Shown one piece after another: positions 2,739-24,122 of a DNA stretch of 24,122 nucleotides. The translations under genes were made by a program, and so were the position numbers. The stretch is from a virus. Within the stretch, counting starts at the first letter, position 1; each line of letters starts with the position of its first letter. The notes below the pieces were generated by a model. The model was given only the letters and a program-made list of their open reading frames with translations. It did no database searches and was not told the DNA's origin. The stretch spans positions 1 through 24,122 of the IMG/VR virus record IMGVR_UViG_3300017728_000112; one strand, given 5' to 3'.

Positions 2739-3377
2739 ATGAGTTCTCAAATTCCAAAAATTATTCATCAAATATGGGTAGGTGATAATCCTATTCCGGA
2801 TCATTGTAAGGAATTTCATTTAAAAATGAAACAAATGCATCCTGATTGGGAGGTAAATTTATGGGGGAATGAAATATTTACTACTTACTATTCTAATGAT
2901 CCATTTTTATCCAACTATAGAAAAAATGTTGAATTATATAAATGGGCTTTTATATGTGATAGAATTAGATTGTTATTATTAAGAGATTATGGTGGGGTTT
3001 ATGTTGATATAGATGCTGAACCTATTAGATCATTTAATAATATTTTATCTAAATTAGAACCACATCATACATTCTTTTCAGGTATGAAACCAACCCAAGA
3101 AAATAATACTTTAATAGATTGTACTGTTTATGGGTCAATCCCAAATTCAAGAGCAGTTAATTTATGTTTAGAAACGTATGATGATATAAATTGGGCTAAC
3201 GGGTGTAAGATGTTTAGTGATGCTTTAATAGCGCATATGGACACTGATATAGCGTTATTTAACTATAAATACTTTTATAATTGGGAACGAAATGATCCCC
3301 ACACAATAGTTTTACATGATGTTGAAGAAACCCGACTTTTTAGTTGGTTAGATAATGAAGAAGACAAAAACTGGTAA
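2739..3377 (+). CDS. DXD glycosyltransferase (capsular-polysaccharide / OCH1-like sugar transferase)
   Basis: This 212-residue protein starts 'IPKIIHQIWVGDNPIP' (residues 5-20), the hallmark opening of the Gly_transf_sug family (OCH1/TcdB-like GT-A transferases). It continues with 'LYKWAFICDRIRLLLLRDYGG' features and the 'YGGVYVDID' motif at 84-92. In this family the Asp-x-Asp (D90-I-D92) binds the metal and nucleotide-sugar, so the likely reaction is transfer of a sugar from a nucleotide-sugar donor. The length is that of a catalytic domain alone, with no membrane segment, so it would be soluble in the host cytoplasm. It sits alone between two virion gene groups with 57- and 55-base gaps. 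Acceptor possibilities are a virion protein, phage DNA bases or host surface sugar; the sequence does not decide. Family call firm, target unknown. Confidence 0.85.
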   Translation: MSSQIPKIIHQIWVGDNPIPDHCKEFHLKMKQMHPDWEVNLWGNEIFTTYYSNDPFLSNYRKNVELYKWAFICDRIRLLLLRDYGGVYVDIDAEPIRSFNNILSKLEPHHTFFSGMKPTQENNTLIDCTVYGSIPNSRAVNLCLETYDDINWANGCKMFSDALIAHMDTDIALFNYKYFYNWERNDPHTIVLHDVEETRLFSWLDNEEDKNW

Positions 3378-3432: not shown

Positions 3433-3780
3433 ATGAAATCAAGCGAATTGAAAAATATGATAAAGGAGGCCGTAAAAGAGGCAATTCAAGAAGAATTAAA
3501 AGATATTCTTTTAGAAGCTGTTAAAGCCCCAAAAGCATCTACTGTAGCAGTTGTACAAGAATCAGTTTCTCAACCCCAACCACCTTCACCCCAAACCCAA
3601 ATGAGTGCTGAACAAAAGAGAGCAGCATATCAAAATATTTTAGGTGAAATGGGTGGCACAATGACAACTAATAATGTACCTCAAAGATTCAATCCAGCAG
3701 GTGGAGATTCAATTAATGGATCATTACCCCCAGGAGAAGTAAATATGTCTCAAATCGCAGGTTTAATGGGAAAAAAATAA
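3433..3780 (+). CDS. 115-aa protein with charged amphipathic N-terminal helix, function unknown
   Basis: Residues 5-30 form a strongly amphipathic Lys/Glu-rich helix ('KEAVKEAIQEELKDILLEAV'), followed by a Ser/Gln/Pro-rich linker ('SQPQPPSPQTQ') and a C-terminal half with 'AEQKRAAYQNILGEMGG', 'VPQRF' and a Lys-Lys end. No catalytic motif is visible. The ATG at 3433 is preceded only by A/T sequence and the TATTTATAAC motif, and the gene lies 5 bases upstream of the gp25-like gene, so it is probably first in the wedge transcription unit. Residues 26-28 (Leu-Leu-Glu, then Ala) fit the loose (L/I)-x-E rule of T4 prohead protease, but such a loose match is expected often in a Glu/Leu-rich helix. 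It could be an assembly chaperone, a small core protein or a baseplate accessory protein. Gene likely real, function open. Confidence 0.75.
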   Translation: MKSSELKNMIKEAVKEAIQEELKDILLEAVKAPKASTVAVVQESVSQPQPPSPQTQMSAEQKRAAYQNILGEMGGTMTTNNVPQRFNPAGGDSINGSLPPGEVNMSQIAGLMGKK

Positions 3781-7129: not shown

Positions 7130-8038
7130 ATGGCAAGATATTCAGGAGCAAGACCATCAAGACAAAACCCATTTGCAAATCAAGGATCAGGATCAGGGTC
7201 AGGATCAGGTAAAGGAACAGGAAAAACTAAATACCCTCCTGCTCCCCCACCATTTGATTTTAAGGGGTATGAAGCTAATAAAAATGCTCAATTTAGAGAA
7301 GAACAACAAGCAAAGATACAAAGGAGAAAAATTGAGGAACAAAATGAAACCCAAGCTCCTAGAGGATATGCTTATACAGTAGATGGAAAAGTTGTAGGTG
7401 AAAAAGCATTTTTAAATGCTGGTAGTGGAGCTCGTAGCTCAGGACGTGGTTCAGGTATTAACCCACCACCTATGAATATACAAGGTACTCCACCTGAAGA
7501 CACTATTAAAAATGGACCTAAACCTATCCCAGAACCTGAAGTACCTAAACCTTTAAGTTTAGAACCAGAAGTTGGGTCAATAGAAAAATTACGACCAGAG
7601 GATCCATCAGAAGTTGCTTCAAAAAGTCCACTTATATTATCAAATTTAACAAAAGAAGTTTTTGAAAAATCTTCATTTGATAATACTTTGGATATAACAT
7701 TTTCTCAATTAGGGCCTGAAAGTGCATTAGATCCAACTTTTTTTGATGTTAGCTTGGCTACCTTAGAAGACTTTTGGACATTATACGAACAATTCTTTTA
7801 TGATATTCCTAAAACTGGAGATGTTAATTCACATGAATATTTAGCTAGGACAAGTGGGGAATATGCAAACTTTGAATTTATACAAGAACAAATACAAGCA
7901 TTATTAGACGAAATAGCAGAAATAAGAGAAGAAAATGTAGAACTTAGACTTGAAAATGTTAATTTAACTGTATCTGGATCCTTAGCAGAAGGAGAAGCTG
8001 CAGCATTACAAGCTCAAATTGACGCACAAACAACTTAA
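7130..8038 (+). CDS. 302-aa virion protein: Gly-Ser linker, proline-rich middle, C-terminal coiled coil
   Basis: Residues 19-26 are Gly-Ser repeats followed by a Lys/Gly stretch, then 'PPAPPPFDFKGYEANKNAQF' features and a basic/acidic helix (about 50-75). The middle is Pro/Glu-rich and likely disordered ('PEPEVPKPLSLEPEVG'). From about 205 it becomes ordered: 'LEDFWTLYEQFFYDIPKTG', 'NSHEYLARTSGEY', then a heptad coiled coil ('IQALLDEIAEIREENVELRL', about 252-275). I recall this closing block from structural proteins of uncultured marine T4-like phages, but cannot name the protein. It starts 2 bases after the previous stop (TTAATTATG) and ends just before the palindromic motif of the giant gene, so it probably closes the wedge unit. 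A trimeric or dimeric tail/baseplate connector is a reasonable inference. Confidence 0.6.
   Translation: MARYSGARPSRQNPFANQGSGSGSGSGKGTGKTKYPPAPPPFDFKGYEANKNAQFREEQQAKIQRRKIEEQNETQAPRGYAYTVDGKVVGEKAFLNAGSGARSSGRGSGINPPPMNIQGTPPEDTIKNGPKPIPEPEVPKPLSLEPEVGSIEKLRPEDPSEVASKSPLILSNLTKEVFEKSSFDNTLDITFSQLGPESALDPTFFDVSLATLEDFWTLYEQFFYDIPKTGDVNSHEYLARTSGEYANFEFIQEQIQALLDEIAEIREENVELRLENVNLTVSGSLAEGEAAALQAQIDAQTT
7184..7207 (+). repeat. Four tandem GGATCA-type hexamers encoding a Gly-Ser linker
   Basis: Three GGATCA units and one GGGTCA variant run in frame from 7184 to 7207 and encode Gly-Ser four times (residues 19-26 of the 302-aa protein). This is a slippage-prone tandem repeat that could vary linker length without breaking the frame. 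Confidence 0.85.
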
Positions 8039-8055
8039 GTTTTTACAAATTAAAA

Positions 8056-8067
8056 TATTTATAAATA
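8056..8067. promoter_or_regulatory. Palindromic TATTTATAAATA motif, copy 2 (before the giant gene)
   Basis: TATTTATAAATA is a perfect 12-base palindrome ending one base before the ATG at 8069. It contains the exact T4 late core TATAAATA (8060-8067) and shares A-TATTTATAA with the copies at 3418, 16612 and 21491. With T4 spacing the transcript would start inside the start codon, so either the spacing is shorter or the element has another role. Confidence 0.45.
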
Positions 8068-8068
8068 A

Positions 8069-11000
8069 ATGGCAACATCACCAACAGCATCAGTTACTTC
8101 AATAACCCCTAGCATTATAGGTGGGGAAGGGTTTGAACTTTCAACTCAAACTATTATACCTAGTGCTGAAGTAACAGCTACTTTTGTCCCATTTCAAGAC
8201 ATAGTAGAAGTTTGGGCTTATGATCCTAATAATAATTTATTAGGAGGAGATAGTAATTTTCAAGATTATATACTTGTTGATTCTCCTTCTGGTGAGGAAG
8301 AAATTGATGGTAGTACTAGTGAATTAAAGTTAAATCCTGAACAAGATTCTGTAAATTTAGGATTTGATATAGGTACTGTAAATTTAGTTTACAATTTTAT
8401 TAGACCTCAATTAGGTAGTAGTAACCAAGATGATTCTGATTTAAAATATTATTTAGCAGAAATTTCTTCAGATAGAACAGAATTAAGATTTAAATCAAAT
8501 TATATTGATAATAATATTATAATATCAACATATAATTCATTTAAGGCTCAATTAAATTCTAATGAAAATTTTGCAGATGAATTTTATGTAAATTTTGGAG
8601 ATAATGAATATCAAGTAGGTATAAATTGTACTTTAGACACATCAGTTGATCAATTTTCAGTTTTAGTAAAGTTGTATGATGCTTTACCTCCTCAATTTTC
8701 ACTAGATGATTTAGCCTGTTTTGTTATAAAACCTGCAGAGTCTTTAGCATATAATATTCAATTCCCAGAACTCCCAGATCCTGAAGACTTTACATATATT
8801 AAAGGTCCTAACTATAAATTAAAAGTAAATGAATTTTTAAATAATTCAACTAATTTAAAGTCTAAAAATGAATTATTACAGACCAATTCTTCAGGTTCAC
8901 TAGATGAACTGCAAAACATACTTAACAGGAAAGGTGTAACATTAACACCTAATTATTCATATGATACTTTTAATGAATTTGTTAATTTTTCTTCTGCTAA
9001 AAAAAGAATCGAAAATTTTGTAGAAAAAGTAACTCAAATCCAATCTTACCAAGCTGATATAGATACTTTAAGTAGCATTTCAGGACCAACATCAGAATCA
9101 ATATCAATTTCATCAAGTGTAGCTTCAGCTTATAATAACATTCAAAATTTAATTACTAATTTTGATGGGTATGAATATTTTTTATATTATGGAACAGGTT
9201 CATCTTCATATCCAAAAACAGGTTCAGCATATCCATTTGAATTATTACCTACTACTAATGCAAGTGTTTCTGTTTGGTTAGGTAGTGATGTTGAAAATAC
9301 TCAATATTATGGAGGTATTTTATTATCAGCTTCATTGTATGATTATAGTAATCAAAACTGGTTATATTATACAATACCAGAATTCATTAGAGATAATAGT
9401 AACAACAACCAATATCTTGAATTTTCAAATATGGTTGGTCAACATTTTGATGAAATATGGTTATATACTAGAGCTGTAACTGAAAAATTAAATACAACAT
9501 CTGAATTAAATGATGGTGTACCTCTAGATTTAGCCGATGATGTTATTACATCCTTAGGTTATACTGGATTTGGAAATAATTTTAATAACCAAGATAATTT
9601 TATTGGGTTAGTAGGTGAAGATAATGGATCTTATGTCCCACCAACTGGAAGTGAATTAATTACAAATTATATAGCAGTTAATGGTGGTACTATAGTTAAT
9701 TATTGGGATCCAGATTATTCATGGGAGTATTATGTTCAATCACTTTCAGATCCTGGATATCCTTATGCTATAGATAAAGTTAGTAAAGAAATTTATAAGC
9801 GCCTTTACCACAACATGAACTACCTTGTTAAGAAAAAAGGTACAATTGCAGGTTTAAGACAACTTATTAATATTTGGGGTATTCCAAATACAATTCTCCG
9901 AATTAATGAATTTGGAGGTAAAGATAGAGATAATTCTGATGATTATGATTTATGGTATAACAGATATAGTTATGCTTATACTCCTGTTTCTACTCAAAAT
10001 GTAGCAAGTTCATCAGTTGTATTTCCTTGGATGCCATTAGAAAGAAATAGAATTGTTGATAGTAAAAATATTGTACCTGATAGTTTCCAATTTAGGTTTA
10101 AAACTACAGGTTACCCATCATCATCATATGCTGGTGAGTTTTTTACTCAATCTTTAGCAGTTAAAAAATCAGATGGTGATGACACTTCAACAGAATTTGA
10201 TTTTGGTATTTCATTATTTTATGAACCTGTAGCTACAGGATCATATTCAGGTTCAGCATCTAGTGAATATGAAAATTGGGGTAAAATGAGATTTTACCTA
10301 TCAGGATCTTCAGCTAATGGTGGTATAGCAACGTCAGATGATATATATCTCCCATTCTTCGACAAAGGTTGGTGGACAGTAATGTTACAACGAGATCAAC
10401 ACGTATCTGCAAGTGATAACACAAATGCTACAACTTATACTTTATATGCTAAAAATACAATCTATAATGGTTGGGATGGAGCTCAAATAGGATTTGAAGG
10501 TTCAGCAAGTATAACATCTGATGTTTCCCAATCCATAAATGAAGCTTGGAATAAATTTGGAACTTCTGTTTATGATGGTATTTACTTAGGAGGATTTGTT
10601 TCTGGTTCTACAGTAGGTAGTGAAACTTTAGGGCTATCAGGAAAAATATTTTCAGGTTCTTTACAAGAATTTAGATATTATTCAAACGACATACCAGAAG
10701 CTACATTTAATGACTTTGTAATGAACCCTGAATCTATTGAAGGTAATGCAATTACAGGTTCACAGTCATCATTTGATATAGTTAATTTTAGAGCACCCTT
10801 AGGTAATGAATTAGAAAGTATATTTACTTCTTCTTATAGTTCTTCCTATTCAGAATCAATGCAATCAATGCATCCTGCAATTCAAGGTCAAGCTCCAATA
10901 TTAATTACAGGTTCATTTTTTAATCCAACTACTTCTACTACTTCAAGTGAATATAGAGTTTTATATTATGAAAATACAACAAACAGAACTTTTAGTAAGA

Positions 11001-21514: not shown

Positions 21515-22312
21515 ATGATATCATTGGTACAACTATTAAATGAAGTAGAAAGTACACCTAAAGCTATTATATTAGCAGGTGCCCCTGGAGCAGGTAAAGG
21601 ATATGTTTTAAAAGGTTTAGATTTAAGTGGTTTAAAAGTAATGAATGTTGATAATACATTTATTAATAAACTTAAACAAGCTAACGTATCTTTAGATCTT
21701 AAAAATGCAACTCCCGAAGAAAGAAGCGAACAAGCTAAAGCAATGGCTGCAGCTAATAAAGAATTTAAAGGTGAATTGCAAAATGTAATTGATGGTAAAC
21801 AATCATTTATATTAGATGGTACAGCGGCTTCATTTAAAAAAACATCTGAATTAAAACAACAATTAGAAGAAGCAGGATATAAAGTAATGATGCTTTATGT
21901 TTATACTGATTTGGAACGTTCACTTAAACAAAATCAAGATAGATTTGAAAAATCAGATGGTGAAGATAGAAGTTTAGCACCTGCAATTGTAATGCGTACT
22001 TGGAAAGGTGTAACAGATAATATTAAACCTTATTTTGATTTATTTGGTAGTAATTTTATAGCAGTAGCAAATACATTAGAAGGTGATAGAATTGAAGATG
22101 TAGAAAAGATTATTACAAAATATCTAAAACCTTTTGAACCTAAAAACACCAAACCAAAAACCCCAGCTCAACAGAAAAAATCTGATGAACAAAAAGCAGA
22201 GTTAAATGCTGCTATTCAAGATATGCTAGATGAGGATTTTATATATGAAATGTTAAGTTATACAATGTCTAAGGAAGAAGCCCAAATGCGTATAGAACAA
22301 TTCTTAAGATGA
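21515..22312 (+). CDS. Zeta-toxin-like P-loop kinase with capsid-targeting-like leader
   Basis: 265 residues. The Walker A is 'GAPGAGKGY' (22-30) after the strand 'KAIILA'; 'KVMNVDNTF' (41-49) with Asp46 and 'SFILDGTAASFKK' (97-109) are the positions expected for substrate and second-strand motifs in zeta-toxin/polynucleotide-kinase-type P-loop enzymes. Later helices include 'RSLAPAIVMRTWKGV'. Such enzymes phosphorylate UDP-sugars, nucleotides or polynucleotide ends. No antitoxin gene lies beside it. The first ten residues, 'MISLVQLLNE', form a hydrophobic amphipathic leader ending Leu-Asn-Glu before Val, like T4 internal-protein leaders cut by the prohead protease after (L/I)-x-E. The C-terminal 40 residues, including 'DMLDEDFIYEML', form an acidic helix. 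The stop overlaps the next ATG (ATGA). Kinase fold likely; packaging into the head is my inference. Confidence 0.75.
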   Translation: MISLVQLLNEVESTPKAIILAGAPGAGKGYVLKGLDLSGLKVMNVDNTFINKLKQANVSLDLKNATPEERSEQAKAMAAANKEFKGELQNVIDGKQSFILDGTAASFKKTSELKQQLEEAGYKVMMLYVYTDLERSLKQNQDRFEKSDGEDRSLAPAIVMRTWKGVTDNIKPYFDLFGSNFIAVANTLEGDRIEDVEKIITKYLKPFEPKNTKPKTPAQQKKSDEQKAELNAAIQDMLDEDFIYEMLSYTMSKEEAQMRIEQFLR

Positions 22313-24122
22313 ATCAATTAACTAAATTTTTAGTAGATGGTATCCTTAATGAAGGAAACGGTAAAGTAATAGCTGCTTATGGGGGTGGATTTAAACCACC
22401 AACAGCTGGCCATTTTGAAGTGGTTAAAAGAGCACTAGAACAAAACCCAGAAATAGAAGAATTAACTATATTTGTTGGAGGTGGTGAACGTGATGGTATT
22501 ACTCAAGCTGAGGCTATTTTAATTTGGGAAATTTTCCAATCATACCTTCCAATGAAAGTGAATATCCAACCATCTAAAGCTCCAATTGGTGATGTTATTC
22601 GTTTAGGAAAAAATAATTTACAAGATACAGTTTATTTTGTAATTGGGGGTAGAGAAGGTAGAGATGATGATGCTGAAGATATTGCATCTAGAACTAAAGG
22701 TATTGAAGAAAAATACCCTAATATGAAAGTTAAAGTAGTTACTACTCCTGATGGTGGGATGAGTGGTACTAATGCTAGACAAGCAGCTAAAGTTTCATAT
22801 GAAGAATTTAAAAAATTCCTACCAGGTAAGTTATCAGATGAGGAAAAAGAAATGGTGTATAACATTGTTTCACCTTCAATTAAAGAAATAAAACTTCCTA
22901 ATATATCTGATATTAAAGAAAAATTTAAGGTTTTTGTTAGTAAACTAAAACAAGAAGGTAAAGAAACTAAAGCAGCATTTGCTCTTTTAGTTAAAGCTGC
23001 CAAAGGTGAAATAGAACTTACTGATTTAGATAAACAACAAATTAAAGAACAACTTAAAGATATTCTTAAAGGAGTATTTGGGGCGGCAGTATTTGCACTC
23101 CCAGCAGGAGGATTAGTTTTACTTTTACTTAAATTGATTAAATTACATGGTTTAGTTACTCCAACAGCATTTTTAGAAGAAAATGATCCCGAAGATGGTA
23201 AAGCTGCCCCTTATGGTTCAGGATATAATGAATTAAAAGAAGGAGACTATTCACCATTAGGGTATGCTAAAAGAATCATAAATGGAGATATTAGCTTTAG
23301 AGAAGCAATGGAAGAATCAGGTATACCATTTGGCAATTTATCTGATTTATTAAAAAAACTAGGTGCAGAACATTTAATTGCAACATCATATAATTTAGAT
23401 AATTTAAATGAAAATGCTTCATATTCTAAAGATATAGATATTAAGGGTAGAATAATGCAATTAACCCAACATATGTTAGATAAAGGGTACAATATAGAAC
23501 CTTTACCTACAGTTGAATTTATTGATGGTGATAGTGAAAATGCACGTGAATTTCTCGGTAAAACAGCGTATTATGACCCGAACACACAAACTATAGTACT
23601 ATATACCGAAGGTAGACACCCTAAAGATATAGCGCGTAGTTATACGCATGAAATGATACATCATATTCAAAATTTGGAAGGTAGATTAGGTGATATTCAA
23701 ACTACAAACACACAAGAAGACGATAATTTAAATGATATTGAAGCTGAAGCTAATTTAAAAGGTACAATGACATTCAGGAATTGGACTGATAGTTTAAATG
23801 AAGCAATTGTAGGTGAAAAAATTGAATGTGATAATTGTGGTTGGAGTTGGAATATAGTAGATGGTGGAGATGATTTATTTATATGTCACAAATGTGGGCA
23901 TGATAATTCTCCACTAAATGAAGCTAAACCATATAAACACAAACATGGTTTTGATGATAAATTAGGTAAAGACCCATTTGGGTTAAACCAATTTGCTAGA
24001 GAAATAGCAGAGGGAGTATTAAACGAAGGTCGATACGATAAATTAGCTAATAAATTATCATCAATTGCATTTGGAGCTTTTAAAGATATTCACGATAGGG
24101 GTGATAAAGAAGGTGAATTTGA
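22309..24122 (+). CDS. Multidomain polyprotein: nucleotidyltransferase, hydrophobic segment, HExxH peptidase, zinc ribbon (3' end outside window)
   Basis: Open from the ATG at 22309 (overlapping the kinase stop) to the window edge: 604 codons plus 2 bases, no stop. Residues 20-160 are a cytidylyltransferase/NMNAT-like Rossmann domain: 'GGGFKPPTAGHFEVV' (25-39, HxGH-like region) and 'GGMSGTNARQAA' (149-160, ISSTxxR-like). A charged helical region (about 195-250) leads to a strongly hydrophobic segment at about 255-279 ('VFALPAGGLVLLLLKLI'). Residues about 312-490 include 'THEMIHHIQ' (446-454), an HExxH zinc-peptidase motif, with 'DIEAEAN' (476-482) as a possible third-ligand region. A zinc ribbon has C507/C510 and C526/C529. 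'VLNEGRYDKLANKLSS' begins the next module. Leu-Asn-Glu occurs at 13-15, 366-368, 496-498, 536-538 and 571-573, with looser LEE (289-291) and LKE (309-311). Phage 'polyvalent' internal proteins show comparable domain mixes. Confidence 0.85.
   Translation, partial: MNQLTKFLVDGILNEGNGKVIAAYGGGFKPPTAGHFEVVKRALEQNPEIEELTIFVGGGERDGITQAEAILIWEIFQSYLPMKVNIQPSKAPIGDVIRLGKNNLQDTVYFVIGGREGRDDDAEDIASRTKGIEEKYPNMKVKVVTTPDGGMSGTNARQAAKVSYEEFKKFLPGKLSDEEKEMVYNIVSPSIKEIKLPNISDIKEKFKVFVSKLKQEGKETKAAFALLVKAAKGEIELTDLDKQQIKEQLKDILKGVFGAAVFALPAGGLVLLLLKLIKLHGLVTPTAFLEENDPEDGKAAPYGSGYNELKEGDYSPLGYAKRIINGDISFREAMEESGIPFGNLSDLLKKLGAEHLIATSYNLDNLNENASYSKDIDIKGRIMQLTQHMLDKGYNIEPLPTVEFIDGDSENAREFLGKTAYYDPNTQTIVLYTEGRHPKDIARSYTHEMIHHIQNLEGRLGDIQTTNTQEDDNLNDIEAEANLKGTMTFRNWTDSLNEAIVGEKIECDNCGWSWNIVDGGDDLFICHKCGHDNSPLNEAKPYKHKHGFDDKLGKDPFGLNQFAREIAEGVLNEGRYDKLANKLSSIAFGAFKDIHDRGDKEGEF

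Follow-up and report, generated by a model that had tools for sequence, protein, structure and literature searches.

Polyvalent proteins, the internal proteins of phage T4 with their targeting sequences, the gp21-type proteases and the leader of DarB from phage P1 are all known. In T4, IPI, IPII, IPIII and Alt are processed by the protease gp21, and they consist of a short N-terminal leader ending in L/I-x-E, as in MKTYQEFIAE↓A of IPII/IPIII (here and below the arrow marks a cut, known or predicted), and a variable cargo. They are separate proteins with terminal propeptides. The published cut rule of gp21 is L/I-x-E (PMC9026906). Polyvalent proteins are large proteins of the injected type, in which peptidase, ADP-ribosyltransferase, nucleotidyltransferase and other effector domains are combined and shuffled (Iyer et al. 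2017, PMC5512222). The analogy to polyproteins has already been drawn in that study, which ascribes release to embedded peptidases and which, in the available portion of its text, does not describe gp21-type border sites or cleavable leaders.

The Dar proteins of phage P1 (DarB, DdrB, and DarA) are also very large and packaged, and DarB needs no more than its first 30 residues to be targeted to the capsid. The available text on these proteins reports no multi-site division into modules and compares the protease, Pro, with gp4 of HK97 (PMC9024508). In phiKZ and SPN3US, a gp21-related prohead protease cuts many head proteins after Glu, the site in phiKZ being S/A-x-E, with multiple cuts in propeptides. 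These cuts remove propeptides, and the accessible parts of the two reports contain no case of different enzymes being released one by one at shuffling borders (PMC9026906, PMC10052503). Likewise, literature searches returned, within the text that the sources made available, no description of head-protease sites at each shuffling border or of polyproteins cut at multiple sites by a prohead protease.

The locus described here resembles the T4 internal proteins in its short leader ending in L/I-x-E, its variable cargo and the gp21-type protease of its relatives, and it resembles the polyvalent and Dar proteins in the size and composition of its product. It differs from the T4 internal proteins in that one chain of modules carries a predicted site at every junction. 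The product is, in our opinion, probably a modular polyvalent cargo protein of a T4-like phage, one that would enter the prohead, be cut by a gp21-like protease, and be injected.

Modules and predicted cut sites of the polyprotein

The window is the entire 24,122-base IMG/VR record, and the modular polyprotein ORF lies at its end (22309–24122, + strand, as are all features of this section). The 604 residues seen are open at the contig end; one relative (L002) runs about 150 amino acids beyond the point where the window polyprotein ends. The start of the ORF overlaps by 4 nt an upstream ORF that resembles a Zeta-toxin/AAA kinase (21515–22312; Zeta_toxin, E value 1.5e-18) and has a leader of its own, MISLVQLLNE↓. 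Neither Pfam nor PADLOC gave a match for the polyprotein as a whole.

As the preliminary description had it, the triplet LNE occurs in the polyprotein at residues 13–15, 366–368, 496–498, 536–538, and 571–573, and is followed, in that order, by G, N, A, A, and G. It had also put the number to be expected at fewer than one, and the figure calculated from composition is 0.29 (Poisson P = 1.3e-5). The window holds six LNEs, all within its last two ORFs, the single LNE of the upstream ORF falling within the first 10 residues. When all ORFs of the window were checked, the other 15 were found to lack the triplet.

The polyprotein begins with the leader MNQLTKFLVDGILNE (residues 1–15; 22309–22353), a predicted helix (residues 2–13 in the AlphaFold model) that ends in the predicted cut site LNE↓G (13–15; 22345–22353). 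We infer that this leader acts like a T4 capsid-targeting sequence. The first module (residues 18–190; 22360–22878) is a nucleotidyltransferase with the fold of the NMN/phosphopantetheine adenylyltransferases. It matches phrog_3041, a cytidyltransferase, and its fold, which AlphaFold predicts confidently, has phosphopantetheine and nicotinate adenylyltransferases as its best PDB matches (Foldseek: CoaD, 6cck_B, E value 4.5e-5, TMt 0.77; also NadD, 8aih). The next module is helical, hydrophobic and membrane-like (residues 191–291; 22879–23181), and its end, PTAFLEE↓, provides the predicted cut site LEE↓N (289–291; 23173–23181), which is LNE in two homologues (L036 and L058). The module, which ends in LPAGGLVLLLLKLIKLHGLVTPTAF (window 22879–23181), looks like the LETM1 pattern; the Pfam model LETM1_RBD scored far under the cut-off (E value 0.23; best member 0.078), and the LETM1-like identity was set aside as a lead only. 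A short shuffled linker, NDPEDGKAAPYGSGYNELKE (23182–23241), carries the predicted cut site LKE↓G (309–311) and recurs as the upstream context of sites in homologues.

The predicted site LNE↓N (366–368; 23404–23412) precedes a zincin-like metallopeptidase module (residues 369–495; 23413–23793) with the sequence HEMIH at positions 447–451. Residues H447, E448, and H451 are invariant, the AlphaFold pLDDT is 80, and the module resembles other predicted phage proteins. No Pfam model matched it above the cut-off (best, DUF6647, E value 0.002), its profile found nothing among PDB sequences, and its model found nothing significant among PDB folds. It is followed by the predicted site LNE↓A (496–498; 23794–23802), by a zinc-ribbon module, CDNC...CHKC (residues 499–535; 23803–23913), and by a second predicted LNE↓A (536–538; 23914–23922). 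The ribbon is matched weakly by several Zn-ribbon Pfam models and was found in 32 homologous copies, in differing contexts. An internal element, KDPFGLNQFAREIAEGVLNE (residues 554–573; 23968–24027), ends in the predicted site LNE↓G (571–573); it appears to resemble the leader, and it recurs with variable modules downstream. The C-terminal module starts with GRYDKLANKLSS at residue 574 and continues to the contig end (24028–24122). In relatives, this module has a second peptidase-like motif, RHELEHLTQ.

The AlphaFold model, built with 30 homologues, has pLDDT values below 50 at residues 359–375, 462–501, and 536–581, and these stretches, predicted to be disordered linkers, hold all four internal LNEs. 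The earlier placement of LNE at domain borders agrees with this pattern, but it missed the borders marked by LEE (289–291) and LKE (309–311).

Exchange of modules at [LIV]-x-E borders

A scan of viral contigs revealed 237 stretches encoding relatives of the polyprotein, and the profile of the zincin module alone found 561. The arrangement is not peculiar to a single phage and recurs in more than 200 viral-contig stretches. The only isolated phage with a relative is Flavobacterium phage immuto (four records), whose 907-residue protein is annotated as NMN adenylyltransferase, and this isolate makes the idea of polyprotein cutting directly testable. Two of the linker modules are nearly without relatives in isolated phages. 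Five genome-bin loci encode a related zincin, one of them titled Flavobacteriales and one Winogradskyella, and the host of this T4-like phage likely lies within the Bacteroidota, probably marine ones.

Across 60 non-redundant homologues, LNE was observed 132 times where 16.5 would be expected; of the 114 internal LNEs, 102 lie at most 6 residues from the end of a homologous segment (random positions 47%, maximum 59% in 1000 trials). Breakpoints, 325 in total, were defined blind to the motif as the points where alignments to at least 6 other members stop. The motif [LIV]-x-E lies at most 6 residues from 75.1% of these, versus 19.0% at random (maximum 24.0%, 200 trials), counts that are not independent draws because homologues share history, a weakness that extends to the controls. 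The variants [LIV]-x-K (23.4 vs 27.0) and [LIV]-x-D (17.2 vs 22.4) were not enriched at the breakpoints. In a control that employed the upstream tail and replication proteins of the same loci, [LIV]-x-E reached 24.5% versus 10.8% at random (n = 49).

The triplet ahead of the zincin module, compared in 58 proteins, is LNE in 32, VNE in 7, INE in 4, LTE, LKE, LDE, and LEE in 2 each, ITE in 1, and another triplet in 6. The pattern is one of constant Glu, an aliphatic residue two residues ahead, and a free middle residue. Judged by sequence only, [LIV]-x-E conforms to the L/I-x-E of gp21 substrates at 52 of the 58 zincin borders and near 75% of the breakpoints. Strict LNE, which had been taken as the cut signal, is the commonest form of this looser motif but only one of its forms, and the residue that follows it is not strictly small (family counts N 41, G 30, A 20, D 20, K 11, I 8, V 7). 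The immuto copy contains no LNE and has other middle residues at its borders. The whole-proteome LNE count in immuto (19 versus 16.6 expected) is too blunt a measure for that reason.

The internal [LIV]NE sites join 69 upstream clusters with 60 downstream clusters in 113 distinct junction pairs. As had been anticipated in the preliminary description, the sites stay at the same borders while the adjoining modules change completely. At the level of sequence, the comparison demonstrates that unrelated modules, predicted to be globular, are joined at linkers that keep [LIV]-x-E whatever flanks them, and that relatives exchange modules there. Such a pattern could be sought in the DNA, if the LNE-coding nonamer served for recombination and the peptide pattern were its by-product. 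Module exchange does occur at these points, and TTAAATGAA is the commonest coding, accounting for 58% of the sites. However, 49% would be expected for it, thirteen different nonamers are employed, and VNE, INE, LTE, LKE, and LQE stand in for LNE. Codon choice for the Leu, Asn, and Glu of LNE does not depart from that in the rest of these genes, and selection therefore acts on the peptide and not on the DNA. The recombination-site reading was dropped after this codon usage test, and we hold it to be very improbable.

The unrelated modules swapped at the sites include zincin, zinc ribbon, superoxide dismutase, plastocyanin, and deoxynucleotidase. In one member (L047, 3071–6829), an Fe/Mn superoxide dismutase (E value 4.5e-29) and a plastocyanin-like copper protein (E value 6.7e-14) are located between predicted cut sites, the latter with VNE↓ and VKE↓ on its two sides. 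Superoxide dismutase and a plastocyanin-like protein are unusual cargo for a phage. Other members include a Zeta kinase (L057) or show weaker matches to RegB, ART-PolyVal, and NT5C. The family shows several effector-type domains per chain together with extensive shuffling, as do the polyvalent proteins.

Modules also occur in both fused and separate form. The Zeta kinase, which is separate in the window, is fused to the polyprotein in L057 and L059 via NELTQFLVD(S/G)ILNE↓, the joints ending in NELTQFLVDGILNE in L059 and in DSILNE↓ in L057. The deoxynucleotidase is encoded by its own gene in immuto and L216, with the leaders MKKVMGNLADLLLEE and MQHRLVDLLLEE, and is fused in others. A module starting with GSSGTPI follows VKE↓ inside the immuto protein, and in L216 it opens a protein of its own behind a leader that ends in LIQE↓. 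This pattern of fusion and fission fits with modules that would function as separate proteins. Alternatively, the chain might stay intact, injected or not, with [LIV]-x-E as a favoured and tolerated linker end for module exchange. The available part of PMC5512222 describes N4 vRNAP and several polyvalent proteins of plasmids as moving without being cut. A neutral linker, however, would not be expected to hold Glu and an aliphatic residue constant yet free the middle residue, nor to recur at the ends of leaders. Other charged variants are not enriched, and modules also exist as stand-alone genes that have leaders of their own, which likewise speaks against an uncut chain. We judge an uncut chain to be distinctly unlikely and retain the reading that the polyprotein is cut.

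Head protease and capsid protein in relatives

A Peptidase_S77 of the gp21 type (E value 8.9e-35; 36% identity to T4 gp21) and a Gp23 capsid protein (E value 6.3e-84) are encoded in collinear genomes and in immuto. The protease was found in the contigs of 10 of 14 relatives as well as in immuto, and six such genomes are collinear with the window, which stops short of the head genes. The preliminary description looked to a gp21-like protease and a fitting capsid cleavage site in the same genome. Both are present, with predicted [LIV]-x-E sites, in the collinear relatives, but the window contig itself carries neither gene. The end of the capsid propeptide, KQLVxE↓ or KQIVSE↓, aligns with FLTE↓A of T4 and is predicted from that alignment. 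By the same means, sites are predicted close to both ends of the S77 protease: LTE or LNE around residue 20, and for the most part L-x-E or V-x-E towards the C terminus. The protease termini, which carry LTE↓S and LNE↓G, are probable autocleavage ends. The candidate cut sites of gp23 probably follow a rule similar to [LIV]-x-E.

From these comparisons we infer packaging, cleavage, and injection of the polyprotein. The leader, and perhaps also the internal leader-like helices, would bring the chain into the prohead core, and the gp21-like protease would cut after Glu. The nucleotidyltransferase, the membrane-like segment, the metallopeptidase, the zinc ribbon, and the C-terminal module would each be freed as a separate product. 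The freed proteins would be injected with the DNA, and their targets in the host may be its NAD or nucleotide pool and its proteins. Several findings were counted against this explanation: the homologues that lack a leader, the immuto borders without LNE, the Val (not Leu/Ile) at P3 of the gp23 site, the embedded zincins, which could do the cutting, the non-independence of the breakpoint counts, and the fact that the protease and capsid genes are known from relatives and absent from the contig. No virion proteome of immuto or of any other member came up in the literature searches. The earlier proposal of a packaged precursor cut in the prohead is supported as regards the persistence of the borders and the protease and capsid genes of relatives; its strict LNE wording did not hold, and the leader is not universal.

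Leaders and the exonuclease-terminase island

A leader is present in 42 of the 60 homologues and 14 begin directly at the nucleotidyltransferase, so that not every family member carries one. Leaders were surveyed in six large genomes and one bin locus. Class A (M-x-N-F-D-L-K-K-F/Y-L) was found 26 times at the N-terminus versus 2 times internally, and its bodies fall into 23 unrelated groups. Class B (MKxSELKxLIKE) was found 11 times at the N-terminus and 0 times internally, on 10 unrelated bodies. Examples of leaders are MENFDLKKFLVENK and that of the window polyprotein. Unrelated proteins thus share an N-terminal leader with a predicted cut site, as is the case for T4-type capsid-targeting sequences. 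The polyprotein sits in an exonuclease-terminase island in which leaders occur in 37 of 121 genes versus 31 of 984 elsewhere (P 2e-20), and in which LNE is seen 47 times versus 9.6 expected. The N-terminal enrichment of LNE is by itself modest, and the leader classes provide the clearer signal. Two large proteins from the same island (L082:26015–28540, 841 aa, and G005:55312–57939, 876 aa) have 5 and 8 [LIV]NE sites, respectively, and no HExxH, and are possibly further multi-cut head proteins.

A classical polyvalent protein would not need the prohead protease for any special part: cleavage of the [LIV]-x-E linkers would fall to the embedded zincins and take place in the head or once the protein had been injected. 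Nearly all members have the zincin module, the C-terminus of relatives contains another HExxH region, and the accessible text of PMC5512222 proposes that polyvalent proteins process themselves. This alternative is weakened because multi-site proteins from the island are devoid of HExxH, and because the same motif terminates the short leaders of many unrelated proteins that contain no peptidase. Moreover, the S77 protease bears the motif where it probably cuts itself, the capsid protein bears it as well, and the motif agrees with the known specificity of gp21. We therefore regard cutting by the embedded zincins as unlikely, and favour cutting by the prohead protease.

We lean towards the broader view that, in a large group of T4-like phages of the Bacteroidota, the head protease has a second role in releasing cargo and the three-residue site serves as a modular connector, so that any enzyme placed between two sites would be released and injected on its own, the cleavable leaders shared by dozens of neighbouring genes giving rise to a large, interchangeable injected arsenal. 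If true, an equivalent of the polyproteins of eukaryotic viruses would exist in tailed phages, with the morphogenetic protease inside the capsid, and not an embedded peptidase, doing the cutting. A simple sequence rule, i.e., [LIV]-x-E at borders together with a leader, would then allow the injected proteome to be read from the genomes of marine phages, most of them uncultured. The gain of unusual cargo, including superoxide dismutase, plastocyanin, ADP-ribosyltransferase, and NAD/nucleotide enzymes, would also be explained.

A glycosyltransferase of the DXD sugar-binding type, which has no counterpart in the six compared genomes, is encoded among the tail genes of the window (2739–3377). In the same tail gene cluster, a 115-aa ORF (3433–3780) has a class B-like start, MKSSELKNMIKEAVKEAIQEEL, and is conserved in relatives beside baseplate genes; leader class B therefore need not imply head targeting. 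Runs of consecutive small genes with near-identical leaders and unrelated bodies were observed at G005 61961–64976 (L134), G003 97669–102496 (L119, L120), and G004 7968–10732 (L123). The leaders in these runs read MDNFDLKKYLAEGRLxxE and MKHSELKQLIKEEI..LNE, and the runs are candidate clusters of injected internal head proteins.
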